In this document: positions 7,886-37,117 of the stretch, one piece after another
How positions within the stretch are numbered: the stretch's first letter is position 1
How the letters are laid out: each line of letters begins with the position of its first letter
Assembly: GCA_903828645.1 (NCBI GenBank)
Contig: CAIKNA010000184.1
Coordinates: 1 to 37,117 of the forward strand
DNA length: 37,117 nt
Direction of reading: 5' to 3'
Origin: an uncultured Bacteroidales bacterium
Lineage (GTDB): Bacteria; Bacteroidota; Bacteroidia; Bacteroidales; FEN-979
Made by a program: the position numbers and the translations under genes
The notes under the pieces: model-generated
Databases searched by the model: none
Told to the model about the DNA's origin: nothing
The model's input: only the letters and a program-made list of their open reading frames with translations

Positions 7886-7891
7886 AAACCA

Positions 7892-9599: not shown

Positions 9600-9660
9600 C
9601 ATTTTTAATTATTGTCCCGCCCTTAAAATTATCGGCAGCAATCGTAAATAACCATTGTAC

Positions 9661-21330: not shown

Positions 21331-24273
21331 CTACTGTGGGGTGTAAGTCATTTTACAAACCGATGACAACCCCTGCGGCCCGGTCAGCCGGATTAGGTAC
21401 ACCCCGGCAGGTATTTGACTGTTCCCGGTAATTTCAGTAAGCGGAAGACGGTAATTTCCGGCATTCAACTGTTTGCATGATCGTGCAATGCCAATACCCC
21501 GGAGATCGGTCAGCTCAAGGATCCATTTTCCGGCAGCCGGCAACGTAAAACACACTTCACTGTTTTGCCCGGCAGGGTTTGGGTTAACCTGCAGGTTTGT
21601 CCTCATTTTTTCTCCCGGAAGGCCGGTAATATAATAATCAAACTGCATGTGATGATTGCCGGCCGAAACGATGGTGTCGGCAAATGCAGGATATATCCCG
21701 AGGAAGGTGGCTGAACCATGGTAGGTTCCATAGGGAACATGCGGGAAAACAAGAGAATCGGTCAGGATGGTGCCGGTGTATGGTCCTTCAGGACCCTGGA
21801 TCACCACATCCACATTGTTCAGCAAACCCAGCATGCCATCCACGGCCTTGCAGACTAGGTCGGCCCTGTTGACAGTAAGCAGGAAGTCAATCCCGGTTGT
21901 GGGCTGGCCCGACATGACAACCACATTGCTGATGGTTTGTGTCGTTGTGTAGGGGTGGGTGGCTGTAACGGAATAGCTTCCTGCCGGAACCACGAGGTTG
22001 TAATTGCCGGAAGCATCGGGATGCATGGAATAGCTCCCTGCGGAAACGCTGGCAAGGGTAAGTTCAGCAGGTGCACCGGTGATGGTGATATGGCCCTGGA
22101 TGTTTCCTGAATTTGCTGCCGGAACCAGGGTGAAGTTCACATTGGGGGTCGTCTGGTTCACAACTACCGGGACGCCGATCAGCATCTGGGTGGCATAGCC
22201 GCTGAGGCTGGCGGTAACGTCATAGTTGCCGGCCGCAAGGTCAAGTGTGTAAAAACCGCTGGCGTTGGGATTGGTGGTGGCCACCCCGCCCCCTGCGCTG
22301 ACAACGACCTGGGTTACATTTCCGGTCCCCCCGTTCAGAGTTACAGTCCCGGTCATCAGGCCATTGGTCGGTGCAAGAACGAGTGAAAAATTGATCCCGT
22401 TCACCGTCTGCTGATTTGCGACCGAAACATTGAACACGGTGTCGGGGATATAGGCTGCCAGGGAGGCGATCACACCATAGGTTCCCGGTGAAACCTGCAG
22501 CGAATAATGTCCGAACTGGTCGGGATGGGTGGTATTGGTTCCTGCGCTGATCAGGACCTGGGTCATGATCCCGAATCCGCCGACAAGAGAGACTGTCCCC
22601 TGGATAAATCCCGATGGAACCGGGATCAGCGTAAGATTCACGGTGGAGGTCTGGTTTGTTTGCACGACAATGTTTGACTGTGATGTACTGATGTACCCTG
22701 CCAGGCTGGCTGTCACGGTATACGTTCCGTTGACAACGGTCATCGCATAATGCCCCGTGGCGTCGGGGCTGGTGGTCGAGGTCCCGGCCTGTACGACCAC
22801 CTGGGTCACATTGCCTGTTCCTCCGTTGAGGGTTACCGTACCCGAAATAGTTCCTGAAAAAGCCGGGCCAAGACTCCCATCCAGCTGGATATTCTGGGCA
22901 TAGATGTCGGAATTGCCGTTGCGGTTATCTTCCCAGGCAACGATCCACTGGTTGTTGGCGAATTCATTCACCACGGGATGTACCTTTTCAGAAGAGACGG
23001 TGCAGATATCCTTTTGCGCCGGGGTCCATACGAAGGCTCCTGAAGGAGAGATGCGCATGGCCCTGATCATGCCATCCACGGCATTCGAGTACTCTTCATA
23101 AACCAGGATCATGTCGGTCGGACTGCTCCTGGCCTCATAAGGGTAAACATCCGTGGTGGAAACCGGAATGAAGGTCATGCCGCTTCCTCCCCATTGCAAT
23201 GCACCGGATGCATTGATCTTCTGCCCGAAAATTCCCCACTGGCTTTGAAGCCCGTTCATTTCATTCCAGTAAACGAAAACATCGGTTGAACCGGGCGGCA
23301 GGGCAAGCTGGGGGTAATAATGATTCATGTTCGAGGCCGTAGAGGCTTCCACACCGTTGGCAGGAAAGAGTACCGCTCCCGTAGCGCTTACATGCTGTAC
23401 AAAAACGCTTGCGCGCTGGTTGTTGTCGCGGTCGTCGTGCCAGGCAATATAAAAACCGTCACTTCCGTCGTTGATGAACGGAAATATCTGTGTCCATGCC
23501 GAAATTCCGCCGGCAAGAGAGATAGCCGCAGCACTGCTCCAGACCGAGGTTCCCGCGGAGCTGTAACGCTGTGCGAGGACGTGGCGGGTAGGAGCGTTTG
23601 GCGGCCCGCTGTCATCAAAGTATTTCAGGATTACCTCGTCGGCCCCGACCGGCAGGAGCTGGGGCCAGTTCAGGGTGTTGGGCGATGATAGCGTGATCCC
23701 TGCAGGGCCCCATAGGAGCGTCCCGGAAGGACTGACTTTCTGCATGATGATGACATTGTCGGCCGACCAGGCAAAAACAAGGTTACCGGCTGCCGTTGAG
23801 ATTACTTTTGGTGAAACGTTGAAGGCCGAACTGTTCGACAACAGGATGCCGTTGGCACCCCATACAAAATTTCCCGAAGGGGAGATGCGATAGGCCACCA
23901 CGTTGGTATTCCCGGTTCGGATGTCGTTGAAGGCAAGGATCGCATGGTCTGCGGCATCACAGGTCATGTCCCAGTCGGTGAGCCAGGTCTCCTGGGGGTT
24001 GGAACTGATCAGGATTCCGTTTGGAGCCCACAGGATGTTCCCCAGTGCATCGAGCCGTTGCAGCCTCACATCATAGTTTCCGCTTTCATTGGAAAAATAG
24101 CCAACATAGGTGTCCCCGTTGGCGCATGTGGCGATTTTCGGAATGGCCTGCTCTCCCGAAAGGTTGCAGATGACATTGTTGACCGCGGGATTGGTGCTCC
24201 ATTGAGAAAACCCGTTGAAGGAAAACAGGCATATAAAGACCGGTACCAGGGAAAAAGTAAAAAATATTTTCAT
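21331..24273 (-). CDS. T9SS-secreted protein with propeller-like N-half and carboxypeptidase-regulatory-like repeats
   Basis: A 980-residue protein with signal peptide MKIFFTFSLVPVFICLFSF...GFSQ. Residues 25-470 contain repeated units of the type W(G/A)PxG followed by a Ser/Val-rich strand (ILWAPNGILIS, FVWGANGILLS, LLWGPAGITLS, LQWGGSGMTF, FVWTPAQKDI), suggesting a beta-propeller. Residues about 473-815 are four CarboxypepD_reg-like/Ig-like repeats: GTVTLNGGTGNVTQVVV (units 1 and 3 near-identical), GTVSLVGGFGIMTQVLI and GHITITGAPAELTLASV. Each repeat then has a DxxGxY strand and a Y(T/D/G/S)VxAS strand. A further beta-sandwich precedes a T9SS sorting domain (from about residue 900; LQVNPNPAGQNSEVCFTL ... 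IPAGVYLIRLTG). It is surface-exposed or released; the role is probably binding. It heads a likely operon with the plugless barrel and the Asp-box protein. Confidence 0.85.
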   Translation of the reverse strand: MKIFFTFSLVPVFICLFSFNGFSQWSTNPAVNNVICNLSGEQAIPKIATCANGDTYVGYFSNESGNYDVRLQRLDALGNILWAPNGILISSNPQETWLTDWDMTCDAADHAILAFNDIRTGNTNVVAYRISPSGNFVWGANGILLSNSSAFNVSPKVISTAAGNLVFAWSADNVIIMQKVSPSGTLLWGPAGITLSSPNTLNWPQLLPVGADEVILKYFDDSGPPNAPTRHVLAQRYSSAGTSVWSSAAAISLAGGISAWTQIFPFINDGSDGFYIAWHDDRDNNQRASVFVQHVSATGAVLFPANGVEASTASNMNHYYPQLALPPGSTDVFVYWNEMNGLQSQWGIFGQKINASGALQWGGSGMTFIPVSTTDVYPYEARSSPTDMILVYEEYSNAVDGMIRAMRISPSGAFVWTPAQKDICTVSSEKVHPVVNEFANNQWIVAWEDNRNGNSDIYAQNIQLDGSLGPAFSGTISGTVTLNGGTGNVTQVVVQAGTSTTSPDATGHYAMTVVNGTYTVTASLAGYISTSQSNIVVQTNQTSTVNLTLIPVPSGFIQGTVSLVGGFGIMTQVLISAGTNTTHPDQFGHYSLQVSPGTYGVIASLAAYIPDTVFNVSVANQQTVNGINFSLVLAPTNGLMTGTVTLNGGTGNVTQVVVSAGGGVATTNPNASGFYTLDLAAGNYDVTASLSGYATQMLIGVPVVVNQTTPNVNFTLVPAANSGNIQGHITITGAPAELTLASVSAGSYSMHPDASGNYNLVVPAGSYSVTATHPYTTTQTISNVVVMSGQPTTGIDFLLTVNRADLVCKAVDGMLGLLNNVDVVIQGPEGPYTGTILTDSLVFPHVPYGTYHGSATFLGIYPAFADTIVSAGNHHMQFDYYITGLPGEKMRTNLQVNPNPAGQNSEVCFTLPAAGKWILELTDLRGIGIARSCKQLNAGNYRLPLTEITGNSQIPAGVYLIRLTGPQGLSSVCKMTYTPQ

Positions 24274-24374: not shown

Positions 24375-24992
24375 TTAAAAACTATATCCAAAACTCATGC
24401 CCACCCATGGCACAAATGCATCTTTGGTTCCAAGTTGCATATATGAGGTCCGGTTTTCAGGAAATTCAGTAATTTCATAAACCGGTGTAAAACCGAACCG
24501 GAACAAAAACCCCTTCTTTTTCTGCAACCTGATTCCTGCGTATCCCGTCAGGAGGAGATCGATAAAACTCCCGCTTTCGTGCCAGGTTGAACCTGAGACC
24601 TGTCCGTCGTCGCTGTTATATCCATTCCAGAAAGTCCAGGTAAAGTTGACCCCGAACCCCAGTTCAATCAGAAACACGTTGGAAACCTGGTAAAATCCAT
24701 TCGTCAGAATGGGTAACGACAAGGTGTTGATGACAGGAGGGGTGTATCCGAGTCCAATTCTGCCTGTAATATAAAAATCGTGTGCATGAAAAAACACCCT
24801 TTCATAATTTACAGAGACAACATTCATATGCCCGGCCAATTCAAGGTAAATGCTGTTATCGGGAATTCTCCTGTGTTTTTTCAGGAGGGCTGAAAAATCA
24901 ATCGGCCTTGATAAGTCAATCGTATCCGGTTGCTGCCCTGAGCAGCAATAAAAAGAGACGACAAAACTGAAAACGAAAATGATCTTTTTCAC
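24375..24992 (-). CDS. Outer-membrane beta-barrel protein (hypothetical)
   Basis: A 205-residue protein starting with GTG at 24992 (GTGAAAAAGATC), the only start that keeps the signal peptide KKIIFVFSFVVSFYCCSGQ. The mature part alternates polar and hydrophobic residues, with aromatic strand ends typical of an eight-stranded barrel: IYLELAGHMNVVSVNYERVF, FYITGRIGLGYT, GYAGIRLQKKKGFLFRFGF, and a final WVGMSFGYSF ending in Phe, as BAM substrates do. It has no named family. It begins 16 bases after the SDR stop and is therefore probably the last gene of the aminolipid-type operon, with an acyl-chain or product-export role possible but unproven. Confidence 0.75.
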   Translation of the reverse strand: MKKIIFVFSFVVSFYCCSGQQPDTIDLSRPIDFSALLKKHRRIPDNSIYLELAGHMNVVSVNYERVFFHAHDFYITGRIGLGYTPPVINTLSLPILTNGFYQVSNVFLIELGFGVNFTWTFWNGYNSDDGQVSGSTWHESGSFIDLLLTGYAGIRLQKKKGFLFRFGFTPVYEITEFPENRTSYMQLGTKDAFVPWVGMSFGYSF

Positions 24993-25008
24993 AAAAGGTA
25001 ATGGAATA

Positions 25009-25812
25009 TCACAACCTGAATTTTCTCCTGGTTCCTAACTCATATAACCTGTAACACAGGAATTGCAAAAATGGTGCTATCCTTGACTGTTTCCCGACCG
25101 GGTAACCGAACCCGGCTTTTGGTGAATTCAGTATTTTCATAACGGTGCATGCAACCCGTTCGGGAGCCTCTGCCCGTTCAATGGTATCGTTAAAAACCGG
25201 CAGTGCCCTCTCTCTTATCCTGTCATATCCGGCAATTGCGGGTTCCGCATATTCAAACGCATTGTGCAGGTTTGTCTTGAAAAATCCCGGTTCAACTAAA
25301 GATACCTGGATGTTGAACGGGCGAACTTCAATTCTCAGCGATTTAAAAAAACCTTCAAGGGCATGTTTTGATGCCGAATAATAACTTTGTAAAGGAACAC
25401 CGATAAGGCCTGCCAGCGATCCGATCGTGATGATTTTACCGAAACCCTGGCGCCGCATCACAGGAAGGATGGCCCTGGTCATTTTAACGGCTCCCCAAAA
25501 ATTCGTTTCAACCTGCCGGTAGGCTTGTTCCAGCGAGGTCTCTTCAGCAGTGCCGCAAATGCCGATCCCGGCATTGTTAACCAGTGCATTTATTGCGGCT
25601 GTTTTGGATAACACCGTGTCAATGCAATTTTGAATGGAGGTTTCAGACGTAATATCCAGTTCTATAAGTTCAAACGGCAGGGTTTGACGGTGTTTTTCAG
25701 GATTCCGGCTTGTTCCGAAAACCTTAAAGCCGCTTTTGTGAAGCAGATTTGCGATGACAAATCCAATACCGGAAGTTGCACCTGTGACGAGAACGGTATC
25801 CATGCGAATCAT
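25009..25812 (-). CDS. Short-chain dehydrogenase/reductase (classical SDR)
   Basis: A 267-residue cytosolic oxidoreductase. The cofactor glycine motif TGATSGIG is at residues 10-17, NNAG at 79-82, the catalytic Ser at 132 (ITIGSLAG), and Tyr145-xxx-Lys149 in YYSASKHAL. A PG motif after the active site (VEPGFFKTNL) is typical of the classical family. Arg36 in GTSRNPEK suggests NADP(H) preference. The C-terminal extension (FLQFLCYRLYELGTRRKFRL) is hydrophobic then basic and may touch the membrane, as in SDRs acting on lipid substrates. The gene is 66 bases downstream of the GNAT gene. In this context a carbonyl reduction on a lipid intermediate is a reasonable inference. The start could be the ATG at 25812 or the one at 25803. 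Confidence 0.9.
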   Translation of the reverse strand: MIRMDTVLVTGATSGIGFVIANLLHKSGFKVFGTSRNPEKHRQTLPFELIELDITSETSIQNCIDTVLSKTAAINALVNNAGIGICGTAEETSLEQAYRQVETNFWGAVKMTRAILPVMRRQGFGKIITIGSLAGLIGVPLQSYYSASKHALEGFFKSLRIEVRPFNIQVSLVEPGFFKTNLHNAFEYAEPAIAGYDRIRERALPVFNDTIERAEAPERVACTVMKILNSPKAGFGYPVGKQSRIAPFLQFLCYRLYELGTRRKFRL

Positions 25813-25878
25813 GTTATTTCGTTTTAATAAATGTTACGCTGTACTGAAAAATGCAATGCTGTGTCCGTCAGATCAATG

Positions 25879-26991
25879 CTAAATACCTGAAATATCTATA
25901 TAAGGCAGATGGTTTCTTACCGCTCCATCCTCAAGCCATTTGTCATTTGCCGAAAACAAAATGATGTTTGAAAGAACAGCCTGCCTCATGAACCCGCTGG
26001 CTGCCGTCAACAACGGATCATCTGCCGAACTTCCCCAGATCATGAAGTGATAGCAAAGTTGCCGGTATTCCCGGTAAACAGCTCTTAACAATGCGTTCAT
26101 CACCTCCGGATCACGATCCCTTGCTGCATAATCCGTGATGGTGACCTCCCGGAAATGACCCCCTGGTTTAGGGAGCGACGGGCGGTTGAATAAAACTGTG
26201 AAGGCCTTCCAGGCGATCCGGGAAGGAAAAAATGCCCTGCCGTAACGCAGGATCCTGGTCTGTTTCATCTGGTGCATATCCCACGCGGCACAAACCCCGC
26301 AACATTTTCCGCTCCTGTCGAAGGCAAGAAAATAATCCCCGATGGATAACCCGGTGTTCCGCATTAAATACCCAGGGAAGGATGCCTCGGTGTAAATATG
26401 CCCGAATAACCGATCCCTGTGCTCAGCCACCAGGAGCCTGACGATTTCGGGGATGTCGTCCATTTGAGCACGCCTGATAGCATACTTGCTGTTTTGGGGA
26501 ACAGGCCAGGCAAGCATAATGGTGTTGATCATCAGCTGGTTTATGATCATGGAACCCGGCGAATACCGGTTGTTTTCGGGTTTCCTCCCGACAAACCGGA
26601 GGCTTGCGCTGTTTCCGTGCATGATCACCCCATAGCCCACGGGAGCGCGGTGAAGATGCTCCCTGAAGTGATTTTCCGTGCTTTTTGCCACAAACCCCCT
26701 GCCCCTGGATTCGGGCAGGATATAAAGGTCCCTCGCGCAAAAGAGTTCTGCAGGTTCACCGTTCACCAGCCCCCTGTGATATCCGGCCATCCCGAATCCT
26801 TTCAGGGTTTCTCCGTCGTAGAGCCCATCGTAATAGAAGTCATCATATTTACACCTGGCCAGCGCAAAGATATCCGGCTGGCGGTCGAAACAGATCGTCA
26901 GCCGGTCTGTTTCGATCGGGGAACCCCGGAGGATCTCCAGCATGACCTTGTTACAGGCCTGATCAAGAGATCTGATCTGGTAGTTGCTCAT
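25879..26991 (-). CDS. Tandem GNAT-type N-acyltransferase-like protein
   Basis: A 370-residue protein if started at 26991 (MSNYQIRSLD...). An ATG at 27066 would add 25 residues and enlarge the overlap with the upstream gene from 29 to 104 bases, so 26991 is preferred. The N-terminal half looks like a GNAT domain: conserved ICFDRQPDIF, then the acyl-CoA binding strand-turn ARDLYILPESRGRGF (R96-G-R-G) and a later YGVIMHGNSASLRF. The second half, from about residue 169, restarts a GNAT pattern (YAIRRAQMDDIPEIVRLL ... FLAFDRSGKCCGVCAAW) and ends with LPYIDISGI. Acetyl or longer acyl transfer to an amine is the family activity. Its 29-base overlap with the BtaA-like gene implies translational coupling, which places it in the same pathway. 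The substrate is unknown. Confidence 0.72.
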   Translation of the reverse strand: MSNYQIRSLDQACNKVMLEILRGSPIETDRLTICFDRQPDIFALARCKYDDFYYDGLYDGETLKGFGMAGYHRGLVNGEPAELFCARDLYILPESRGRGFVAKSTENHFREHLHRAPVGYGVIMHGNSASLRFVGRKPENNRYSPGSMIINQLMINTIMLAWPVPQNSKYAIRRAQMDDIPEIVRLLVAEHRDRLFGHIYTEASFPGYLMRNTGLSIGDYFLAFDRSGKCCGVCAAWDMHQMKQTRILRYGRAFFPSRIAWKAFTVLFNRPSLPKPGGHFREVTITDYAARDRDPEVMNALLRAVYREYRQLCYHFMIWGSSADDPLLTAASGFMRQAVLSNIILFSANDKWLEDGAVRNHLPYIDISGI

Positions 26992-28075
26992 GATGAACGT
27001 GTTTGATGGGAATGACTGAACTAAAAGGAAACCGGTCAGTTTTGATGAGTTCTGCTCCAAGCGCATGATTGGGTCTTAAAAATGACGATGCCGCGGGAAT
27101 CTCATGTTCCAGGTAAATGTATCGCAGCACCACCTGACTGCCGGGACTGGTTTTCTCCTGGATTTGTCTGAAAATCCCTGCCATCGATTCCTTAGGCATC
27201 CAGTCTCCGATGTTTGACAACAGGATCTTATTGAATTGCCCCGGCTGCACGGCAGATAGAAACTCCTCCATCGGGGATGAGACAAACGAAACCTGGTGAT
27301 TGTTCCGCAGAAAGACTTCACGGTTTTCGGCTTTCAGGTACTCCGGAATTGCCCCCGGGAACAAGGAGTGCCGGAAAAAAACATACTGCAGCAAAAAATT
27401 GTCCCTGGCCGGCGTACTGCAGCAGAAACTCCGAAAACAACCGAAAAAAAAGTCTCCGATATTTCCATCCTCCCCGCGATGCTGCATCCCCACCGCGTCG
27501 ATCCCCCTGTTTTTATAAATACGCGGATGAAATGCTGTTTTAAAGATCATCTTCAGGAGGGGGCGCGCAAAACAACGGTCGAATATCTCTTCCTGTTCCC
27601 TGGCCGTATCACATTCGAACAACCGGTAAAAATTTTTCCTGCCGATGACGGCAAGCGCCGGCAGGGATGCTTTTTTAATAAACCGTTCAAACTTCCCTTC
27701 ATGGATCAGCCCGTTGCTGATAACCGGAATATTGTTTCGCCAGAAAACAGCGTCTTCCTTTGAAAGTGAAGGGAAGATCATTTTATAAAAGAGGTTTTCC
27801 CGCCTGGTACTGACCATTTCCGTGTACCCCAGGAAGCCTGCAGCGTCTTTGGAATCAAGAAGGATTGCCGCCTGCCGCTTGATCCGGCATATGCGCAACT
27901 GGTTTTCGGAAGAATCCACGGCGACAATGGTCACGTTTTTCAATGCAGAGATGCTGAGCGGAACCTCACCCGCGCCGGCAATGCAGAGCAGTGAGTCCCC
28001 ATCCCTGAGATCGAGCCCCCTGATCTCCGTCAAAGGATCTTCCTGCGACAGGCCGAAATTATAGCGTGGTACCAT
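26963..28075 (-). CDS. BtaA-like (DUF3419) SAM-dependent 3-amino-3-carboxypropyl transferase
   Basis: A 370-residue protein with the layout of DUF3419, the family of BtaA, which transfers the 3-amino-3-carboxypropyl group of S-adenosylmethionine to diacylglycerol in betaine-lipid synthesis. Visible features are an N-terminal YNFGLSQEDPLTEIRGLDL; a Rossmann SAM site CIAGAGEVP (31-39) followed by VAVDSSENQL (51-60) and an RICRIKRQAA helix; a central helical insertion with ECDTAREQEEIFDRCFARP; NFLLQYVFFRH; and the late motif NIGDWMP followed by GSQVVLRYIY. No BtaB methyltransferase lies nearby, so DGTS itself need not be the product. It starts eight bases after the stop of the fusion gene and overlaps the GNAT gene. 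The acceptor could be a diacylglycerol or an amine or alcohol made by the neighbouring fusion enzyme. Confidence 0.75.
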   Translation of the reverse strand: MVPRYNFGLSQEDPLTEIRGLDLRDGDSLLCIAGAGEVPLSISALKNVTIVAVDSSENQLRICRIKRQAAILLDSKDAAGFLGYTEMVSTRRENLFYKMIFPSLSKEDAVFWRNNIPVISNGLIHEGKFERFIKKASLPALAVIGRKNFYRLFECDTAREQEEIFDRCFARPLLKMIFKTAFHPRIYKNRGIDAVGMQHRGEDGNIGDFFFGCFRSFCCSTPARDNFLLQYVFFRHSLFPGAIPEYLKAENREVFLRNNHQVSFVSSPMEEFLSAVQPGQFNKILLSNIGDWMPKESMAGIFRQIQEKTSPGSQVVLRYIYLEHEIPAASSFLRPNHALGAELIKTDRFPFSSVIPIKHVHHEQLPDQIS

Positions 28076-28083
28076 GATTGTTA

Positions 28084-31000
28084 TCAGGTGGTTACTTTAT
28101 AACTTTTTATGCTTCCAAGGTGGTTGAATAACCCATGTTTTTCGGCTAACTCCGCTACTTTTCTCATCGACCCGGGAAGCAGGTGCCCTTTCAAAGGGAG
28201 CGGGAATGGTTCCAGCCCCAGCAGCATCGCTTCAGCGGCGCAGCAGAAAACAGTTCCCGCAGGCGAGTAAGAGCTGATCACCGCCCCCGGATCCTCCGGC
28301 ATGCATACGTATGCTGCAAAGGGCATGATGATCACATTGGGAAGCGACGCCGTCTCTTTTGCCAGTGCTGACGGCACCGACAGATCGGAAATAAGGACCG
28401 GTTTCAGCGGTGAAATATGATGCGGATATACCAGTGGATCGTTTGTATTGGCGCATAAAATCAGGATGTCGGCCGATTTTAACCGTGACAATGCAGTAGT
28501 GGTTTCAATGCTGATACCGGGTGCTTTTCCTGCTTCAAGTTCACTGGCGATGGCATCCAGCCGTTTTTCCGACCGGGCGACCAGCAGCAATCCGGCACAG
28601 ATATCTTCCTGTGTGGATAGTATTCCGGCAATCACCTGTCCGATATTGCCGGTTGCACCGACAATCGCAATCCGGGCAGGCTTTTTAAATTCAGGAGTGG
28701 CAAACAGGTATTTCCGGAGGTTTGTCACCCCGGAAGCGGCAGTAAGTGTATTCCCGGTGATGATGCGGCAACCCTCAGGTTCGGCCAGTGACATCCCGTT
28801 GCAGGTCAGGATCGAAGTATAGCCTCCAAGACTGATCACGGATGCTCCTTCTTTTGCAGCCAGGTTAACCGTTTCCTGTATCCTGGAGATGACTCTCCTG
28901 GTTTTCCCGCTCTTATGCAGGTGTTCCAGTTCGGCAGAATCAACCGGCAGCACATAAAAGGAAAAATGGATCCTTCCGTTAAAGAGGTTGTTCCCGATCA
29001 GCCGGAAGGGCTTCATCTCCATCAGCAACTGCATGCGGTTGAAGAGAATGCGCAGACCGGTGTCTGATGCGCGGCAAAGATCGGGTTCAAGCATGCGAAG
29101 TTCATTTACCGGATTCACAAAATGGGCGATAAATGCCACCTTCTCTGCGCCTGGCGAAGCATCCTCAACGATTGTCCGGTAGCGCCCGATCTCCGGCAAT
29201 GCTCCCTTGTTGTCGTCGAAAGGGTCATCATCCATCAGGAATGAAAAAAGGTCATACAACCGTTTTTCAACGAGGATCTGGCACAACTCTTCAAGCGCCA
29301 GGCAAAACCGGTCTGCCTCTTTTTCGGTGAGAAAGGCGGATGGCTCGACCCGGAGAGTCTCCGGTGCTGAAAGCGTGGGAAATACCCTGATCCTGTGTTT
29401 GTGAAAAAACCAGGCAGCAAAGAAATATCCGGCTTTTTCGGTGTTGAAGAGCGCCCTCAGCATCACGTTTTCCGACCCGCAGGAAGGGTTGAAAGAGACC
29501 CCCAGCATGACCCCTTCCCCCCTGACATCAAGTATCACCCGGGAATATTTCTCCCTGATTTTTGAAATTTCCCGGACAAGGTAATTTCCGGCAAGCAACG
29601 CCTTTTCGGGTAATTTCTCCGCTTCGATGATCTCCAGCGTTGTCAGTGCAGCAAGGGCGGCCATCTCGCCGTTTCCGAAGGTGCTGACATAATTTTCGCT
29701 GAAATCGAACCGAAACCGCCGGCTCTCTATCAGCACGGCTGAAATTTTTTCAACGCCTCCTCCAAGCGCTTTGCCGAAAAGATAATAATCTGCATTGGAA
29801 AAAGCAGGAAACCGGCCGGTACGTCCCAGTCCGCATTGAATCTCATCAGAGATCATCGGGAATTCGAAACCGGCAAGGTATTCAAGAACCTCCGGGTTTA
29901 CACTCCTCACACCTCCTTCGCCGATAACCGGTTCGGCCATGGCAGCAATGACAGTGCAGACCTTAACACGTTCAACCACTGCATGCCCGTTGGTTTGTAC
30001 CACCTTCTCCAGGTGAATAAAGGAACTGTCAAGGATTTCCCCGATCCGCTGTTGCCAGTCCTCGCTCCGGTCATCCACAAACCAGGCTTCAACCTTAGCC
30101 AGGTTGGAAAAGCAGGATCGTTTCCTCAGGTTTCCCAATGCGCTCCGGGCGCCGGTCGTATGCCCGTGAAATGCGCCGGCAATGGCAATCGTCCGGACCC
30201 CGGCCTGACGGATAATTTCCTCATTTTTATTCCATATCCCGGCAACATCAAGGTAAGTGAGGCTTCCAAACATCTGCAGTTGAAAATCGCGCAGCCTGGC
30301 AAGCCTTTTTTTCCATTCAAACAGGGCATGGTGCAGGGCGATCTCCACGGCTTCTGAACCACTGTTGCCAAACAGCACCCTGAAACTTTTTCCCGTTTTC
30401 TCTCCGACCGCCAGGCTCAGTTTTTCAGCGAGCAACCCCGTGTAACAGGGAATGCTTAACTGGTTGTTAATCGCAACTCTTCCCGACGTCAAAAAACCGG
30501 TGATGGCCTCCCTGATGCGTGAGTTTGAATGGCCCACCAGGTTTGTTCCATATCCTCCTGCAAGATCCAGGATTTGGGTCTCTTTTCCATGGATATAGGT
30601 GAATAACGAATCTTTTTCCCCTTTGTGGAAAACAAGGTTCATTTTTAAAGCAGAAAGCATCATGCCTATCTGGGGACTGATATACCTTGAATATTTGTCT
30701 GTCGACTGGTAATGACTTTCTGTAATCTCTATCCCGGCCGAATCCTTTCTGCAATCCTGGAGTCTCTCTATCAAGGTTCCGTAAAGAGTATGGATCTCCT
30801 TCAGGGAAACCGTGCCTTTTGGTGTAAGCGGCGGGGGCTCGTTAACGATTGCGATCCTGCAGATATGCCTGTGGTCAAATTCGAATGGCTCGATCTGCTC
30901 TTTCAACCGGTCGTTCATTCCTTCGATGGTGCCGGCATGTTTTTTCAACACCGTTGCATTGGTGACAATCCCTTCCGGCACTCCTGTCTCCGCCACAAAA

Positions 31001-32487
31001 AGAAGTGCAGACAACCCGGGGAAATTCGACATCGGGAAAAATTCGGCATGAAGCACCTGTTGAAACAATCCGCGATAATACTCTTTCAGCGCCCCGACCG
31101 GGATTTTCACCCCGAAATTGTCCTTGAAATAATCCCTCCCGGCACGCCCGACGTAAAACAGCCTGTTGTCCCCGGTCAGTTTGACAATATCTCCCGTATC
31201 AAAATACTCCTGGTTTATCTCCTCCCCGATGCAGTATTTGTGGCCAAAAACAGCGCGTAAAAACAGTTGGTAACAATCTTTCCCTGCATCGGAGGCGACA
31301 AGTCCAGCGGTTACCCCGGGCAGAGGATTTCCAAGGGGAACCAGCCCCTCGCCGGGGTCACTTTGTTTGTCGGGCAATGTTGAAAACACCTGCTGGGTTT
31401 CCGTAGTACCCAAAGCGTTGTGAAGCCGCAGTCCGATTGCATCGAATACCTCCCGCGCTGTGGCAGGGTTGAAACCGGCACCGCTCGAAACCAGTGTTTT
31501 TAAATGGGGTGCGAGGGCGGATTTAAGTTCCGGGTATATGCGGTAAAGTTCCAGGAAGGCATTGTAAACAGCAGGTCCGCCGGTAATATGAGCCGGTTTC
31601 ATTTTCAGCAGCAGGTAGCGCACCGTTTCCGGTTTACGGGTAAACCATTCGGTTATGATCAGGCACACCGGCGAGCCGGTCCACAAAGCATTTAGAAAAG
31701 CCCTGACTCCCATGGTATGGGTAAACATTGGCGTGAACCCGGTCCCGCCAAGCAACTCCTCATGATAAAATCCTGCCTGCTGCCAGGCCTTGCAATTCAG
31801 CCAGTACGCTTCATGGGTATAAACCACCAGTTTCGACCGGCCTGTTGTTCCCGAAGTCGTGATGACCAGGGCCTCATCTGAAGGCAAAACCTGCTGCAGG
31901 GATGCCAGGACTTCTGATGTTACCATCCGGTCAGGGATCGGGTCCCTGCCAACATTTTCAATGGCATTGAAATCAGAACAGGTATCCAGCAAGGGAATCA
32001 TCCGCGATTCAGCAATCCTGCTGATGACATTTACACAATCCTTTTCTTTGTCGTGTCCCTCAAGGCTCATCACCTCTCCCACCGGCAGTATGACATGTTT
32101 AACGCTGGCAACTTCCAGCCAATGGCCGAATTCGGTTGTTTCTGAGAACATGGGCAGGAAAACCCTGCATCCTTTTGTAGCCAGGGCCAGGAAAAACAGT
32201 GCGGTATACATCTCATTGCACCCGGGAAAGTTCAGCAATGCAACGGTTTCTCCGCAAAGGATTCCGTGACGGGAAAAATCCTCCACGAGTTCTGAGACAA
32301 TGAACCTGAGCCTGCGCAAACTCACTTCTGTATATTTCGTCTCAACATGGCTCAGGATGATCAGGTCATCTTCACTCCTGCCCGGCAGATCATTAAACAG
32401 CATCCGGCCAATGGTTTCCGGGCTCTCTTCGCCAAGGTGGATCGGGTTTTCCAGAATCTTATCAAACGGTATCATCCTGGTGCGCAT
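28084..32487 (-). CDS. Fusion enzyme: acyl-adenylating ligase, class III aminotransferase, acyl-ACP-reductase-like domain
   Basis: A single 1467-residue frame with three enzyme parts. Residues 1-575 are an AMP-binding (ANL) ligase: TTSGTTGRSK (210-219), ALGTTETQ (358-365), YFDTGD (428-433), a hinge YVGRAGRDYFKDNFG, and the C-terminal PLTPKGTVS loop (553-561). Residues about 600-1075 are a class III PLP aminotransferase: GNSGSEAVEIAL (707-718), AFHGHTTG, ISDEIQCGLGRTGRF with D881, and FGKALGGG with the PLP lysine K906. Residues 1115-1467 resemble cyanobacterial acyl-ACP reductase: an N-terminal FIAHFVNP, ISLGGYTSI (1218-1226), IITGNTLTA, the NAD(P)H loop VGATGNIG (1276-1283), and FCCAAEAMLL (1414-1423) aligning C1416 with the AAR cysteine. 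No phosphopantetheine carrier site was seen. The likely chemistry is fatty acid to acyl-AMP/CoA, to aldehyde, to primary amine. The downstream genes fit aminolipid tailoring; the product is inferred. Confidence 0.85.
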   Translation of the reverse strand: MRTRMIPFDKILENPIHLGEESPETIGRMLFNDLPGRSEDDLIILSHVETKYTEVSLRRLRFIVSELVEDFSRHGILCGETVALLNFPGCNEMYTALFFLALATKGCRVFLPMFSETTEFGHWLEVASVKHVILPVGEVMSLEGHDKEKDCVNVISRIAESRMIPLLDTCSDFNAIENVGRDPIPDRMVTSEVLASLQQVLPSDEALVITTSGTTGRSKLVVYTHEAYWLNCKAWQQAGFYHEELLGGTGFTPMFTHTMGVRAFLNALWTGSPVCLIITEWFTRKPETVRYLLLKMKPAHITGGPAVYNAFLELYRIYPELKSALAPHLKTLVSSGAGFNPATAREVFDAIGLRLHNALGTTETQQVFSTLPDKQSDPGEGLVPLGNPLPGVTAGLVASDAGKDCYQLFLRAVFGHKYCIGEEINQEYFDTGDIVKLTGDNRLFYVGRAGRDYFKDNFGVKIPVGALKEYYRGLFQQVLHAEFFPMSNFPGLSALLFVAETGVPEGIVTNATVLKKHAGTIEGMNDRLKEQIEPFEFDHRHICRIAIVNEPPPLTPKGTVSLKEIHTLYGTLIERLQDCRKDSAGIEITESHYQSTDKYSRYISPQIGMMLSALKMNLVFHKGEKDSLFTYIHGKETQILDLAGGYGTNLVGHSNSRIREAITGFLTSGRVAINNQLSIPCYTGLLAEKLSLAVGEKTGKSFRVLFGNSGSEAVEIALHHALFEWKKRLARLRDFQLQMFGSLTYLDVAGIWNKNEEIIRQAGVRTIAIAGAFHGHTTGARSALGNLRKRSCFSNLAKVEAWFVDDRSEDWQQRIGEILDSSFIHLEKVVQTNGHAVVERVKVCTVIAAMAEPVIGEGGVRSVNPEVLEYLAGFEFPMISDEIQCGLGRTGRFPAFSNADYYLFGKALGGGVEKISAVLIESRRFRFDFSENYVSTFGNGEMAALAALTTLEIIEAEKLPEKALLAGNYLVREISKIREKYSRVILDVRGEGVMLGVSFNPSCGSENVMLRALFNTEKAGYFFAAWFFHKHRIRVFPTLSAPETLRVEPSAFLTEKEADRFCLALEELCQILVEKRLYDLFSFLMDDDPFDDNKGALPEIGRYRTIVEDASPGAEKVAFIAHFVNPVNELRMLEPDLCRASDTGLRILFNRMQLLMEMKPFRLIGNNLFNGRIHFSFYVLPVDSAELEHLHKSGKTRRVISRIQETVNLAAKEGASVISLGGYTSILTCNGMSLAEPEGCRIITGNTLTAASGVTNLRKYLFATPEFKKPARIAIVGATGNIGQVIAGILSTQEDICAGLLLVARSEKRLDAIASELEAGKAPGISIETTTALSRLKSADILILCANTNDPLVYPHHISPLKPVLISDLSVPSALAKETASLPNVIIMPFAAYVCMPEDPGAVISSYSPAGTVFCCAAEAMLLGLEPFPLPLKGHLLPGSMRKVAELAEKHGLFNHLGSIKSYKVTT

Positions 32488-32501
32488 TTATGTTTTGACT
32501 C

Positions 32502-33164
32502 CTACTTTTTTCCAAGCGGAAGCAGGTATCCGAGTGAAACAACAAAATTCCTGTTGCACAGCGACTTATAACCATCGGGTTTGTTTGTCATCTGCTGGAT
32601 ATCCATCAATCCGTAATTATATCTCAGGTCAAGAAAAATATGACCCGGCCCGGCTTTGATTCCGGCTCCCAGGTCGGCTGACCCTCCGGCATCAAACCTC
32701 CTGTAGTTATCCTTTCCAAACTCGATTTTATCATTTGAACCGGGAGCAACGACTTTACCATTAATCGCATATCCGATGTATGGTCCGATTCCGCCAAAGA
32801 TTTTAACATTCCCGAATGAGTGGCCAAATTCCACGAGGATGGGCAATGTGATGTAATTTATTAACAACGATACTTTGGTGGTTATTCCCTGGTACGTCGT
32901 CTGCAGCTTTTCCCCCTTTTGCTCATACAACAGTTCAAATTGAAGGGAAACCAGGCTGGTGAAGGCTGCATTACCGGTCAAACCGCCATCAGCCATGATG
33001 TTGGGTGACCGTTTGAGCATATCTTCATAATCTTTGAAATTGGAAAGGTAGGAAAAACCCACCCCGGCTTTTGCCCCGATTGAAAATCCCTGTCCCGAAG
33101 TTTGAGCCGTTCCTGCCAGCAGGATCATGGCCAGTAATGAGAAGGCAACTAATCTTGTTTTCAT
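32502..33164 (-). CDS. PorT-like outer-membrane beta-barrel protein
   Basis: A 220-residue exported barrel. Signal peptide MKTRLVAFSLLAMILLAGTA, cleaved near SGQ. The mature protein starts FSIGAKAGVGFSYLSNF and has the features of the outer-membrane-protein beta-barrel family seen in PorT and many Bacteroidetes proteins: FELLYEQKG, YITLPILVEFG, FGGIGPYIGYAINGK, FLDLRYNYGLMDI and a last strand FVVSLGYLLPLGKK. It is the first gene after the promoter at 33233 and ends 14 bases before the fusion enzyme, so it is probably co-transcribed with the lipid genes. PorT proper is larger and belongs to T9SS; this protein is only a member of the same broad fold family. Confidence 0.82.
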   Translation of the reverse strand: MKTRLVAFSLLAMILLAGTAQTSGQGFSIGAKAGVGFSYLSNFKDYEDMLKRSPNIMADGGLTGNAAFTSLVSLQFELLYEQKGEKLQTTYQGITTKVSLLINYITLPILVEFGHSFGNVKIFGGIGPYIGYAINGKVVAPGSNDKIEFGKDNYRRFDAGGSADLGAGIKAGPGHIFLDLRYNYGLMDIQQMTNKPDGYKSLCNRNFVVSLGYLLPLGKK

Positions 33165-33232
33165 GGTCTTTCTGTTTTAGGTTGATGTTGAAATTGATCT
33201 CCATTGTCCATCCGGAGGTTTTTTAAGCAATT

Positions 33233-33263
33233 CAAAATTATAACAGGGAAAAAGCGTTTCAAA
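33233..33263 (-). promoter_or_regulatory. Promoter of the putative aminolipid operon
   Basis: On the minus strand TTTG (33263-33260) is followed by 19 bases and TAATTTTG (33240-33233), a full match to the Bacteroidetes consensus with correct spacing. The start codon of the first gene is 68 bases downstream. No other comparable promoter was found before the genes at 32487, 28075, 26991, 25812 or 24992. Confidence 0.72.
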
Positions 33264-33552: not shown

Positions 33553-35298
33553 ATGCTCCGAACACACACCTGCGGCGAACTGACCATGGCTCAAGTGGGC
33601 CTTGAAGTGACGCTTTCCGGCTGGCTCCAGCGCTCTCGCGACATGGGCGGGCTCACCTTTCTCGACCTGCGCGACCGCTATGGAATAACCCAGCTTGTCT
33701 TCAATCTTGAAGTAAACAGCGCGCTGTGCATGGAAGCCCGCAAACTTGGGCGTGAGTTTGTAATCTCCGCCAAAGGAAAGGTGGCAGAGCGAAGCAACAA
33801 GAACATGAAACTGCCAACCGGCGACATAGAGATACTGGTCGACAGCCTAACCGTGCTGAATGTATCAAAGACCCCCCCGTTCACCATCGAAGACAACACA
33901 GATGGCGGTGAAGAGTTGCGCATGAAATACCGTTACCTCGATTTGCGGCGCAGCGTGAACCGGAAAAACCTGGAGTTGCGCCACAGGATGGGCATTGAAA
34001 CCCGGAATTACCTGAATAACCAGCAATTTCTGGAGATTGAAACACCATACATGATCAAATCGACCCCCGAAGGTGCAAGAGACTTTGTGGTTCCCTCGCG
34101 CATGAACCCCGGACAGTTTTACGCCCTGCCGCAATCACCCCAAACCTTTAAGCAGCTGCTGATGGTGGCAGGTTTTGACCGCTATTTCCAGATCGTCCGG
34201 TGCTTCCGCGACGAAGACCTGCGTGCCGACCGGCAGCCCGAATTCACCCAGATCGACTGCGAGATGGCTTTTGTGACCCAGGAGGATATCCTCAATACCT
34301 TCGAAGGCCTTGCAAAACACCTTTTCAAATCGGTTCTGAACATCGATATGGGCGAGTTTCCCAGGATATCCTACGATGAAGCCATGAGACTTTATGGCTC
34401 CGACAAACCTGACATCCGTTTCGGAATGACTTTCACCGAATTGACTGAACTGGTGAAAGGAAAAAATTTCAAAGTGTTCGATGATGCAGAATTGGTCGTG
34501 GGAATAAATGCCACGGGTTGTGGCGATTATTCGCGCAAACAGCTGGATGAGCTCACTGATTTCGTGAAAAAACCGCAGGTTGGCGCCTCCGGGCTGGTTT
34601 ATGTCAGATGTGGCCCCGACGGGGTTGCAAAATCATCTGTAGATAAATTTTACACCCCGGATGATTTGCTGGCCATCGTGGCTAAATTCAATGCCGCCCC
34701 CGGCGACCTGATCCTGATCCTTGCAGGTAAAGAAGAAAAAACAAGATCGGCCCTCGGAACCCTGCGACTGGAAATGGCGAAACGCATGGACCTTTTACGG
34801 GGTGGTGATTTCAAACCCTTATGGGTGGTTGATTTCCCGCTTCTCGAATGGGACGAAGAAACCCGTCGTTTCTATGCGAAACACCATCCCTTTACAGCCC
34901 CCAAGCCTGAAGATGTTCCATTGCTTGATACCGATGCAGCTGCCGTTCGCGCCAATGCATACGACCTGGTCATCAATGGGACGGAAATCGGCGGCGGCTC
35001 CATCCGTATCCATAACAAGGATCTGCAGAAAAAAATGTTCTCCGTGCTGGGCTTTTCTGATGAGGATGCAGCCGACCAGTTTGGATTCCTGATGAATGCA
35101 TTTGAATATGGCGCACCACCCCATGGCGGCATCGCATTTGGTTTTGACCGGTGGTCAACGATCTTTGGCGGCGGGGATTCCATTCGCGATTACATCGCCT
35201 TCCCGAAGAACAATTCCGGCCGCGATGTGATGATAGATTCCCCTTCGGCCATCAAGGAAGAACAACTGAAAGAACTGCAAATCAAACTGGTAAGGTAA
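33553..35298 (+). CDS. aspS: Aspartyl-tRNA synthetase
   Basis: A 581-residue class IIb synthetase that charges tRNA-Asp (or tRNA-Asp/Asn if the cell lacks AsnRS). It has the bacterial-type architecture: an N-terminal OB-fold anticodon-binding domain (residues 1-105; [19 protein letters not shown]), class II motif 2 ([20 protein letters not shown] from about 216), the GAD insertion (about 285-410), the [13 protein letters not shown] segment (near 479) and motif 3 ([20 protein letters not shown] from about 525). It ends [20 protein letters not shown], as in other Bacteroidetes. Length is normal and no key motif is missing. It is transcribed divergently from the aminolipid-type operon and converges on the small lipoprotein gene, with only three bases between the two stops. 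Confidence 0.98.
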
Positions 35299-35301
35299 TA
35301 A

Positions 35302-35679
35302 CTACTTCATTCCCTTCTCAAAGTTGTCACGGTCTTCTTTTGAAAGACTTTTACATTCGAGCATCGATTCATTCAGGTACCTGCGAAACTGACCGGTAAA
35401 TTCCCTGGTCGCCGACTTTGCTTCATATTTTTTCCTGAATTTCCCGTAAAGGATCGTCAGTTCGTTCTCCACTTTTTTATACTCCGCCTGTAACTTCCTT
35501 ATCCGGATGGAATCCGCCGGGTCGGCAGATTTCAGATTTTTCATCGCTTCCAGGCTTTTGCACATGACATTGGCTATTTCCGTGGCGTCATTTTTCAACT
35601 CCTTGTTTTCACTTTTACAACCTGAAACTCCAGAAATGCAGGCAAAAATTACAGAATATACGATGACCATGAATTTCAT
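35302..35679 (-). CDS. Small putative lipoprotein
   Basis: A 125-residue protein with a type II signal peptide, MKFMVIVYSVIFACISGVSG followed by C21. The mature part is mostly charged helix (IRKLQAEYKKVENELTILYG, KFRKKYEAKSATREFTGQFR), consistent with a small coiled-coil envelope protein. Cys39 and Cys113 could form a disulphide. No family is recognised. A TATTTTTG box on the coding strand (35703-35696) lies 17 bases upstream of the ATG and may be its -7 element. The gene runs convergently into aspS with no visible terminator in between. Confidence 0.78.
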   Translation of the reverse strand: MKFMVIVYSVIFACISGVSGCKSENKELKNDATEIANVMCKSLEAMKNLKSADPADSIRIRKLQAEYKKVENELTILYGKFRKKYEAKSATREFTGQFRRYLNESMLECKSLSKEDRDNFEKGMK

Positions 35680-35695
35680 AGACTGGATTTTTTAA

Positions 35696-35703
35696 CAAAA
35701 ATA
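35696..35703 (-). promoter_or_regulatory. Candidate -7 box for the small lipoprotein
   Basis: TATTTTTG on the minus strand matches TAnnTTTG 17 bases before the start codon. No clear TTG lies at the -33 distance; transcription may also enter from the pabB/pabC pair. Confidence 0.4.
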
Positions 35704-35710
35704 GTTGATT

Positions 35711-36307
35711 TCAGGTTATTTCCGTTGCAGGAATCAACGCATCTTCCTCCGGATCACGCATCGCGTTGATCAGCTTACATCCGGTGAAATGGCCGATATC
35801 ACCGGGGCGGATCTCCCTGTCTGTCAGCCGCCCTTCGGACAAAAGCCTGTTCCGGCAAGTGCCCTTTAAAAGCGGATTTGCCGGAGTGTACCAATCTTTT
35901 CCCTCGAGGAAAATAAGATTAGAGATCAGTGTATCCGTTATCAGCCCGTTTTTAACAATGATAACATCATCCGACCCTCCTCGGAGCATAAAAAGCGATT
36001 CCAGCAACGACCGGTCGCTGTATTTCAGGTGATAGTCAATGGAATTGCACTCCACCATTTTCAACGACCGGATAACACGTCTCCTGTAATATTTAAAACT
36101 GATCTTCTGCTCACCGGGTCCGTAAAAAATGTTGCATTGAACCAATCCCGTCGAAAATTCAGGGGGAACAGTGATTTCCTGACTTAGGAGAAAGGGTTTT
36201 CCGTCGTTCCATAACTCCTTCCCTGCCTGGTTCATGCGTCTCTCATGCCAGGCCAGGTGCTGAGGCACCCCATTTACCACCCGGATCGTTTCAAATAACC
36301 GGCACAT
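35711..36307 (-). CDS. pabC: Aminodeoxychorismate lyase-like class IV aminotransferase
   Basis: A 198-residue PLP enzyme of fold type IV. The PLP lysine is K95 in DYHLKYSDRSLLESL. The GLITDTLISNLIF (121-133) and TPANPLLKGTCR (141-152) motifs are the usual cofactor-phosphate and substrate signatures of PabC/IlvE-type enzymes. It is short for the family (often 230-280), but all key motifs are present, and this compact form is common in Bacteroidetes beside pabB. It would release pyruvate from 4-amino-4-deoxychorismate to give 4-aminobenzoate for folate. The ATG lies inside the end of the pabB-like gene with a 17-base overlap, indicating translational coupling and supporting the assignment over a branched-chain aminotransferase. 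Confidence 0.82.
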   Translation of the reverse strand: MCRLFETIRVVNGVPQHLAWHERRMNQAGKELWNDGKPFLLSQEITVPPEFSTGLVQCNIFYGPGEQKISFKYYRRRVIRSLKMVECNSIDYHLKYSDRSLLESLFMLRGGSDDVIIVKNGLITDTLISNLIFLEGKDWYTPANPLLKGTCRNRLLSEGRLTDREIRPGDIGHFTGCKLINAMRDPEEDALIPATEIT

Positions 36308-37117
36308 AGATCTTTTGAATCATTTCATGATATTCACTTTCCATTTCACTCAGCGCAGTAATGCCTCCCCCGCTCTTAAACACAAGTCCGTCGAAGGTCT
36401 GTTCAATAAAACGAATGGAAACGGCCGATGTAAGCTCGTGACCGTCAAAAAAACCAAATATTCCGGTATAAAAACCTCTTTCGTACGATTCCGCTGACCG
36501 GATGATTTCCACCGTCTTTTCCTTTGGCGCACCTGTCACCGACCCAGCAGGCAGCAGGGCAAACAGGATATCTCCAATATGTTCCGTGTAATTAACAGGG
36601 AGGTCGCCGCTGATTTCGGAACTCATCTGGAGCAAATCCCCGCGGTTGGTATGTATCCGTTCCAGGTACCTGGACCGGGTAACGGCAACATTTGTCGACA
36701 CCATCGCCAGGTCATTTCTGATAAGATCGACGATGGTGTTGTGTTCGAAGGACTCCTTGTCATCCGCAAGCAATTTCAGGCCTGCACCGGGAATGGCTGC
36801 GTCAATGGTCCCTTTCATCGGGCAACAGGATATGCGGGAATCCCTGATGTGCACAAAAGGTTCGGGTGAAAACACGACAAAATGGCCAGGGACAAAAAGT
36901 TTAAACCGGGCGTGGCTTATATCAAAAATTCCGGAGAGGGAATAATTTGAGCGCACCCCGGTTGGGAACGTCAGGTTGAGCAAATAGCTATCGCCTCGCT
37001 GAAGGTGATATTTCACCTTTTCAAATGCTGTTTGATATGCTTCAATCCCAACCGGAAAAAGATCGAATTTCAAAGGTGTTTCACTCCTTTTTTTTTCATG
37101 CTTTTCCGGCGTGCAGA
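36291..37117 (-). CDS. pabB: Aminodeoxychorismate synthase component I-like, 5' end beyond window
   Basis: About 275 residues of a chorismate-binding enzyme whose frame stays open to the window edge. A TTG at 37073 is in frame but is not a real start, since PabB proteins of this type are about 320 residues. Diagnostic motifs: GDSYLLNLTFPTGV, CCPMKGTIDA, the VDLIRNDLAMVS segment, LLPAGSVTGAPKEKT, a GFYTGIFGFFDG loop, and SGGGITALSEMESEYHEM at the end. It makes 4-amino-4-deoxychorismate from chorismate and ammonia or glutamine; a PabA glutaminase is not in the window. With the overlapping pabC-like gene it forms a folate pair. Isochorismate synthase or TrpE alternatives are less likely given the pabC neighbour and the short length. 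Confidence 0.88.
   Translation of the reverse strand, partial: CTPEKHEKKRSETPLKFDLFPVGIEAYQTAFEKVKYHLQRGDSYLLNLTFPTGVRSNYSLSGIFDISHARFKLFVPGHFVVFSPEPFVHIRDSRISCCPMKGTIDAAIPGAGLKLLADDKESFEHNTIVDLIRNDLAMVSTNVAVTRSRYLERIHTNRGDLLQMSSEISGDLPVNYTEHIGDILFALLPAGSVTGAPKEKTVEIIRSAESYERGFYTGIFGFFDGHELTSAVSIRFIEQTFDGLVFKSGGGITALSEMESEYHEMIQKIYVPVI

Follow-up and report, generated by a model that had tools for sequence, protein, structure and literature searches.

In Pseudoalteromonas tunicata the enzymes PtTamA and PtTamH together yield the C12 amine of tambjamine YP1 biosynthesis (PMC9594044). Here we describe a gene cluster with related enzymes on the minus strand (24375-33263) of a 37,117-nucleotide stretch of DNA from an uncultured Bacteroidales bacterium (contig CAIKNA010000184.1, positions 1 to 37,117 of the forward strand), which we refer to as the window. 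Its central genes encode a fusion of an ANL (acyl-adenylating) ligase, a class III transaminase (TA) and a thioester reductase (TR); a DUF3419 protein; and a double GNAT protein. The conserved unit consists of these three genes only, and we put the chance that this three-gene cassette makes a fatty-amine-based aminolipid at about even. The fusion resembles PtTamA/PtTamH in ANL activation, TA-TR order, the GxxGxxG motif and the catalytic cysteine, and the conversion described for that pair is from fatty acid to fatty amine (PMC9594044). It differs in that the ANL part is fused ahead of TA-TR in one chain, with no fused acyl carrier protein (ACP), and in having DUF3419 and an N-myristoyltransferase (NMT)-type GNAT as linked partners; PtTamH was compared by its description, not by alignment.

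Several other systems share parts of this scheme. PigE of prodigiosin biosynthesis (PDB 4ppm), the second-best PDB match of the fusion, also holds a reductase and a transaminase in one protein, but from the matched ranges its reductase part comes first, and the matched 861-residue chain has no ANL part. BtaA belongs to the same Pfam family as the cassette DUF3419 protein, and transfer of the aminocarboxypropyl group of S-adenosylmethionine (SAM) is known chemistry (PMC10491745). MccD and MccE of microcin C combine such a transfer with decarboxylation (PMC10491745), as we propose for DUF3419 and the phosphatidylserine decarboxylase (PSD)-like protein encoded beside some copies of the cassette. 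MccE, however, uses pyridoxal phosphate (PLP), the acceptor there is a phosphate and the order of steps is unsettled (PMC10491745), whereas the candidate decarboxylase here is a PSD-family enzyme. The OlsB, OlsF, GlsB and GluB pathways make phosphorus-free amino-acid lipids by way of an N-acyltransferase, like the pathway proposed here, in which the amino acid would instead be assembled on the lipid from SAM. Their N-acyltransferases share PF13444 (PMC11631085), which is absent among the 11 Pfam families matched by 13 members of the cassette GNAT family at E up to 10.

Each of these enzyme families is already known individually; the combination and the proposed product we did not find in print. 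We know of no report of these enzyme kinds working together, and a literature search, with most subscription journals and bioRxiv preprints outside its scope, returned no description of the gene combination, of a single-chain ANL-TA-TR enzyme or of the proposed product. Neither ‘fatty amine’ nor ‘diaminobut’ occurs in the available text of a 2024 review of aminolipids (PMC11631085), and the lipids named in the available part of a study of Labilibaculum, a Bacteroidota isolate, include none of the proposed type (PMC12927429).

The fusion is rare. At E 1e-30 it was found in 4 of 393 genomes of the order, the window's own among them, and in 1 of 395 genomes of a sample of the phylum, which was again the window's own. 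In the species-genome collection, a search with two peptide patterns and a 4-row alignment found 15 named loci, which is a lower bound. Fourteen carry the full fusion (34-79% identity) and one, L026 from a Planctomycetota metagenome-assembled genome (MAG), the ANL part alone as a free-standing 577-residue homologue. Most of the loci belong to Bacteroidota and Aminicenantes, the others to Fodinibius, an Actinomycetales and the Planctomycetota MAG; L024 is one MAG record and possibly misbinned. In 14 of the 15 loci, all but Fodinibius (L023), the DUF3419 gene adjoins that for the fusion or the ANL part, and the GNAT gene stands beside this pair in 12 (not in L021, L022 or L023). In the GC-rich DNA of L018, L024 and L026, DUF3419 was located by a six-frame hidden Markov model search, and in other places the picking of open reading frames (ORFs) may hide genes. 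Apparent GNAT fusions of 702, 531 and 634 residues were discarded as artefacts of overlapping wrong-frame ORFs in GC-rich DNA.

Co-occurrence extends beyond adjacency. With L021 treated as the G690 genome and L022 as the G624 genome, DUF3419 is present in all 17 genomes that have the fusion or its parts (the fusion is split in one). All 17 also contain a match to the GNAT profile, strong in 15 (E no higher than 1e-104). Of the 15, 13 supplied the rows of the profile and two, G624 and Fodinibius, were found independently of it; Fodinibius carries its DUF3419 and GNAT genes side by side at a locus apart from the fusion. Within the order, PF11899, the Pfam family of DUF3419, occurs in 7 of 393 genomes. 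Four of these are the fusion-bearing ones; the other three include G638, whose protein falls in the cassette clade, and G727, which has a PEMT-DUF3419 fusion. The GNAT profile matches 13 of 393 at E 1e-10, some of them weakly. Pairwise protein distances of the three core genes are correlated across 12 loci (r 0.98, 0.94 and 0.93; 0 of 2000 permutations each, with species history uncorrected). An earlier note on this DNA had proposed that all six genes of the cluster form one pathway. The linkage of the fusion, DUF3419 and GNAT genes across phyla supports this for three of them; the short-chain dehydrogenase/reductase (SDR) gene and the two presumed barrel genes are not kept beside the cassette in the ORFs called in relatives, apart from one homologue of the last gene on the opposite strand in L013.

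The fusion gene (28084-32487, minus strand) encodes 1467 residues, which Pfam, PDB matches and a 16-row alignment divide into three domains. Residues 1-577 (30757-32487) form the ANL domain (AMP-binding, 6.4e-24), residues 578-1085 (29233-30756) the class III aminotransferase domain (Aminotran_3, 1.5e-40), and residues 1090-1467 (28087-29220) a thioester reductase domain resembling acyl-ACP reductase (AAR), with a Rossmann-type Pfam match. The A10 lysine of the ANL domain (K557), the PLP lysine (K906), both C1415 and C1416, and the GxxGxxG glycines G1277, G1280 and G1283 are invariant in all 16 rows, and the TSG of the ANL P-loop is likewise kept in 16 of 16. When the 16-row profile was compared with the PDB, CrmG (5dds) and PigE (4ppm) were the best matches. 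The reductase domain matched a cyanobacterial acyl-ACP reductase (6jzq, 1.3e-9) and the reductase part of PigE (4ppm, 5.9e-9), with C1416 aligned with residue 294 of the 6jzq chain; C294 is the active cysteine of the S. elongatus enzyme (PMC9594044). The ANL domain alone had a single weak PDB match (5jjq, 9.7e-6), so that its sequence does not tell its substrate class. Judged by its sequence, the transaminase-reductase half belongs, with its catalytic residues invariant, to the TamH/PigE type that makes fatty amines, and the fusion probably makes an aliphatic amine. The earlier note had called the C-terminal domain AAR-like and the gene set a maker of a long-chain amine; the match to 6jzq, with the catalytic cysteine aligned, supports the first point, and the fusion does read as a fatty-amine synthase.

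The adjoining gene (26963-28075, minus strand) encodes the DUF3419 protein, a predicted BtaA-like SAM 3-amino-3-carboxypropyl transferase. Its PF11899 score of 145.4 bits (cut-off 28.2) makes the DUF3419 assignment in the earlier note a solid one. The predicted model (predicted local distance difference test, pLDDT, 90.4) has the fold of class I SAM enzymes, with a large middle part that is mostly helical. It aligned with an m1A58 methyltransferase (Z 14.5, 158 residues, root mean square deviation (rmsd) 2.6) and, at rank 47 among many tied rows, with CntL (Z 12.7), a match that alone is no evidence for aminocarboxypropyl transfer. Foldseek gave weak matches to SAM enzymes, and the DUF3419 profile matched no PDB sequence at E up to 1.

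In a tree of DUF3419 proteins, 18 cassette-type rows were split with support 99/99 from three others, namely a second, high-scoring DUF3419 of Fodinibius (E 7.1e-104), a fusion of PEMT and DUF3419 in G727, and a protein of G654. Two of these three branches are long, so false joins are possible, and characterized BtaA was not among the rows. Because the cassette type forms a separate supported clade, it is probably a subfamily with a different acceptor. Aminicenantes and Fodinibius are intermixed with Bacteroidota in the tree, which suggests that the cassette DUF3419 spread by transfer between lineages. BtaB, the N-methyltransferase partner of BtaA, has no counterpart among the six window genes or among the relatives' scanned neighbours, which are a subset of all. 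With no partner seen among the genes scanned and DUF3419 in a separate clade, synthesis of diacylglyceryl-trimethylhomoserine was dropped as the main reading of the cassette.

A related possibility is that the cassette makes two products, the fusion supplying an amine for another purpose while DUF3419 acts on diacylglycerol to give an unmethylated homoserine glycerolipid, the amine of which the GNAT acylates. Characterized BtaA of the DUF3419 type does make a betaine lipid (PMC10491745), and one genome, G638, holds a cassette-clade DUF3419 gene with a GNAT gene 0.9 kb away and no fusion. The cassette DUF3419, however, has its own clade and in 14 of 15 loci adjoins the fusion or its ANL part; Fodinibius has its separate DUF3419 besides the cassette type; and among the neighbours scanned, a part of the total, there was no PEMT, the methyltransferase family joined to DUF3419 in G727. 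We regard two separate products as improbable. From the gene linkage, we lean slightly towards the view that the DUF3419 protein acts on the alkylamine made by the fusion.

The third core gene (25879-26991, minus strand) encodes the double GNAT, a predicted N-acyltransferase of NMT type (model pLDDT 92.6, predicted template modelling score 0.91). The earlier note had recognized a double GNAT here. The window protein itself has no Pfam match, but Acetyltransf_1 is matched by 10 of 13 family members at E up to 10, with 8.2e-10 the best value, and together with the predicted model this supports the call. In a structural alignment of the model, NMTs headed the list (4uwi, Z 23.3, rmsd 3.9, 307 residues reaching the C-terminus), with the mycobacterial tandem GNAT 7q3a close behind (Z 21.9). 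Residue 370 of the model is aligned with Gln496, the last residue of human NMT1, whose C-terminal carboxylate is the catalytic base of that enzyme (PMC7048800). Among 21 aligned GNAT proteins (the 13 rows of alignment A3 and 8 others), 20 end exactly 4 residues past a conserved Asp or Glu, on Ile, Leu or Thr; the protein of L080 ends 5 residues past it. NMT-type proteins, which are defined by a C-terminus that enters the active site, have been reported in bacteria (PMC12219266).

Because of the NMT-like fold and the fixed C-terminal end, we predict that the cassette GNAT is an N-acyltransferase. It has the fold of NMTs and HisAT-like double GNATs over its full length and a fixed C-terminal end at the NMT position, but differs in low identity (9-13% in the structural matches listed), in the lack of any match to NMT Pfam families among the 13 family members at E up to 10, in its lipid-type operon and in its likely acceptor, a small-molecule amine. 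The double GNAT HisAT prefers short chains yet accepts myristoyl and palmitoyl groups (PMC12219266). Addition of a long acyl chain by the cassette enzyme is, in our view, slightly favoured. The family evidently has uses besides the cassette, since close relatives in G528 and G764, encoded among hemerythrin/PAS proteins (L076:6601-7707, minus strand; L077:4360-5583, plus strand), keep the same C-terminal end in genomes without DUF3419 or the fusion. A distant relative in G652 (L081, 6372-7493) lies within a same-strand run at 4981-9824 with a radical SAM/B12 protein and a GH3-family enzyme, which may be another pathway not yet studied.

Some copies of the cassette have further genes that would fit a lipid pathway. 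In L012 and L020 the GNAT gene is followed on the same strand, 163 and 179 bases on, by a gene of the PSD family (PF02666, 5.9e-35 and 1.1e-35). Both proteins contain SPADG, VHxNRAP and MGS, which we take to be the Asp, His and GS cleavage motifs. They share 54% identity with each other but no more than about 30% with the other PSDs in the comparison, all score below the NCBIfam cut-offs, and each of the two genomes has one further PSD. The window genome (G000) has three PSD-family genes elsewhere (C16:47491-48000, C150:13684-14187 and C274:74-697), and its close relatives G783, G784 and G786 have two or three; the extra PSDs of 286 to 336 residues in G000 and its near relatives are weakly like the cluster PSDs and were not counted with them. 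MMPL/RND-type genes lie near 6 of the 15 loci (L015, L017, L018, L019, L022 and L025); in the four of these that were scanned there were three MMPL matches and, in L019, a sub-threshold ACR_tran match, and those of L017 and L018 were assigned by clustering. In L015 (10888-14556) the cassette is followed by genes for a FabA/FabZ-like protein, a sub-threshold ketosynthase (KS) match, a FabF-like KS and a FabG-like protein. L022 (15517-22786) has, by clustering, the same four fatty acid synthase (FAS)-type genes, and besides them an exporter of RND/MMPL type and an ACP. In these two cassettes the acyl chain may be an unusual one. The FAS-type sets also recall polyene or flexirubin-type clusters.

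These neighbours bear on whether the product is a lipid at all. The cassette could make a secreted small molecule, such as a tambjamine-like alkylamine conjugate or an opine-like chelator, with a short- or medium-chain amine from the fusion, an aminocarboxypropyl group added by DUF3419 (compare CntL and staphylopine) and an acetyl or short-acyl cap from the GNAT. TamA/TamH and PigE work in secondary metabolism, acetyltransferases occur among double GNATs, and the patchy spread (4/393 in the order, 1/395 in the phylum sample) and phylum-mixed tree suit a transferred accessory pathway. A lipid is favoured by the genes found beside some copies (MMPL-type exporters, FAS-type genes, a PSD-family enzyme), and NMTs head the Z list over the full GNAT length, though 7q3a is near and comes first in Foldseek. 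On this evidence we consider a secreted product unlikely.

The Planctomycetota genome (G794) shows a different arrangement. In L026 the ANL, DUF3419 and GNAT genes share one contig, which ends after the GNAT gene, and a separate 989-residue TA-TR protein is encoded on another contig (L090:5081 to ~9970), showing that TA-TR can stand apart in a cassette-bearing genome. Read by eye, an ANL-like gene overlaps the TA-TR gene by 4 bases and an ACP-like stretch lies upstream, so that the L090 genes look like a TamA/TamH-like fatty-amine set. This split would fit a scheme in which the ANL supplied the acyl donor of the GNAT and the reductase-transaminase took a thioester from fatty acid synthase, and the KS/FabG-type genes near L015 and L022, with an ACP in the latter, would suit that division of labour. 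Set against it are the fusion of ANL-TA-TR in all 14 other named copies and the direct precedent of TamA-TamH for an ANL that feeds the reductase; we judge it very unlikely.

From gene content, linkage, co-occurrence, domain identity, catalytic residues and predicted folds, which are what we observed, we infer substrates, step order, chain lengths and product as follows. The ANL domain of the fusion would activate a fatty acid in an ATP-dependent step, the reductase domain would convert the thioester (ACP or coenzyme A (CoA)) to an aldehyde through a cysteine, and the transaminase domain would turn the aldehyde into a primary alkylamine, a sequence proposed because of the PtTamA/PtTamH precedent. 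DUF3419 would then transfer the 3-amino-3-carboxypropyl group of SAM to the amine nitrogen, giving N-alkyl-2,4-diaminobutyrate. The NMT-type GNAT, with its own C-terminal carboxylate as base, would add an acyl group from acyl-CoA or acyl-ACP to an amine, and the result would be a two-tailed lipid with no glycerol and no phosphate. In some genomes a PSD-family decarboxylase would strip the carboxylate to leave an aminopropyl head group resembling phosphatidylethanolamine (PE), and MMPL lipid exporters would serve some clusters. Pyruvoyl enzymes of the PSD family require a free alpha-amine, and we therefore propose that the acyl chain sits on the secondary amine.

In its full form this proposal is a class of N-alkyl-N-acyl-2,4-diaminobutyrate lipids without glycerol, sphingoid base or phosphate, in which the alkylamine tail comes from a fatty acid, the head is built from SAM and the second acylation is of NMT type. 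In a subset of bacteria a dedicated PSD-family enzyme would decarboxylate the product, giving an aminopropyl lipid and so mimicking without phosphorus the step from phosphatidylserine to PE, and exporters would deliver the lipids to the outer membrane. We advance this specific structure tentatively, as possible rather than probable.

A number of observations weigh against the aminolipid reading. The known acceptor of BtaA is the hydroxyl of diacylglycerol and not an amine. No ACP gene occurs in the window cassette, and the 1467-residue fusion has no PP-binding match at E up to 1 that would indicate a fused ACP; C12-CoA yielded no amine with recombinant PtTamH, which depended on its ACP partner (PMC9594044). 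The P-loop lysine of the ANL domain is absent in 2 of 16 rows (L012 and L024), and in G794 the ANL adjoining DUF3419 may serve another step. For the GNAT, 7q3a led the Foldseek ranking, followed by an Enterococcus GNAT, with the NMTs starting at rank 4, and double GNATs of NMT-like fold can be acetyltransferases (PMC12219266). In G610 and G690 the only GNAT match is a divergent one that is not linked to the other genes (8.4e-10 and 7.6e-12, aligned over the full length), and the gene content of G638, G528 and G764, described above, counts on the same side. PSD genes accompany 2 of the 15 loci, and FAS genes also 2.

In the window, the core genes are part of a run of six ORFs, all on the minus strand (32502-33164, 28084-32487, 26963-28075, 25879-27066, 25009-25812 and 24375-24992). 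The GNAT start was set to 26991 because the four closest homologues (L012, L013, L014 and L016) begin at that position, the ORF start at 27066 being too early, and with this start the intergenic gaps are 14, 8, -29, 66 and 16 bases, just as the earlier note had given them. The same note had named a good promoter at 33233-33263 (minus strand), 68 bases upstream of the first gene. The site, TTTG-N19-TANNTTTG, is an exact match to the Bacteroidota-type promoter consensus and the sole one within the window; a sigma-70 scan did not return it. Since 21 of 200 mononucleotide shuffles contain at least one exact match, we regard the site as suggestive of an operon promoter, not as proof.

Pfam also recovered the remaining domains named earlier (OMP_b-brl_2, AMP-binding, Aminotran_3, a Rossmann-type match, DUF3419 and adh_short). 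The first gene (32502-33164, minus strand) encodes an outer-membrane beta-barrel protein (OMP_b-brl_2, 3.3e-20) and appears accessory; none of the ORFs called in the 18 other loci matched it at E 1e-4. The fifth gene (25009-25812, minus strand) encodes a classical SDR (adh_short, 6.9e-48) that is distantly like 3-ketodihydrosphingosine reductase (KdsR model, 219.5 bits against a cut-off of 400); the SDRs of relatives, in L015 and L011/L022, are only 25-28% identical to it. The last gene (24375-24992, minus strand), for a predicted secreted or barrel protein, has no Pfam match and a single homologue, on the opposite strand in L013, so that of the two barrels claimed before the first is upheld by Pfam and the second is a label given by eye. 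The SDR and both barrels were dropped as core members because they are not conserved beside the cassette among the relatives' called ORFs. Alpha/beta-hydrolase-like genes, scattered over L015, L023 and L075 (by Pfam, two of them sub-threshold) and L025 (by clustering), were rejected as a fourth core gene, as was a pectinesterase beside L009, L010 and L021 as a member.

Elsewhere in the window, an aspartyl-tRNA synthetase gene, named by eye, lies at 33553-37115 and diverges from the operon promoter; in L014, homologues of this gene and of the three window genes that come next lie upstream of the cassette. Two large secreted-type proteins are encoded at 9661-15414 (1917 residues, with PKD/GEVED domains and a C-terminal secretion sorting domain) and at 21331-24273 (980 residues, with carboxypeptidase-regulatory repeats).

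Taken as a whole, the interpretation in the earlier note is partly supported. Homology placed the proteins in no unrelated families and the linkage proved to be conserved, two points on which that note had let its reading depend; the envelope aminolipid it named as product is an inference. The idea is directly testable, since one host of the cassette, Fodinibius sediminis DSM 21194, is in culture and another, Marinilabiliaceae bacterium A049, is apparently an isolate. If it is true, the cassette genes would serve as searchable markers in lipidomic work on the lake and other samples that, to judge by their names, several of the MAG records come from. The three-in-one fusion may offer a single-chain route from fatty acids to amines. 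The cassette itself would represent a new pathway to a membrane lipid or lipid-like compound, and it would give a function to DUF3419 proteins of the cassette type and to a bacterial NMT-type acyltransferase.

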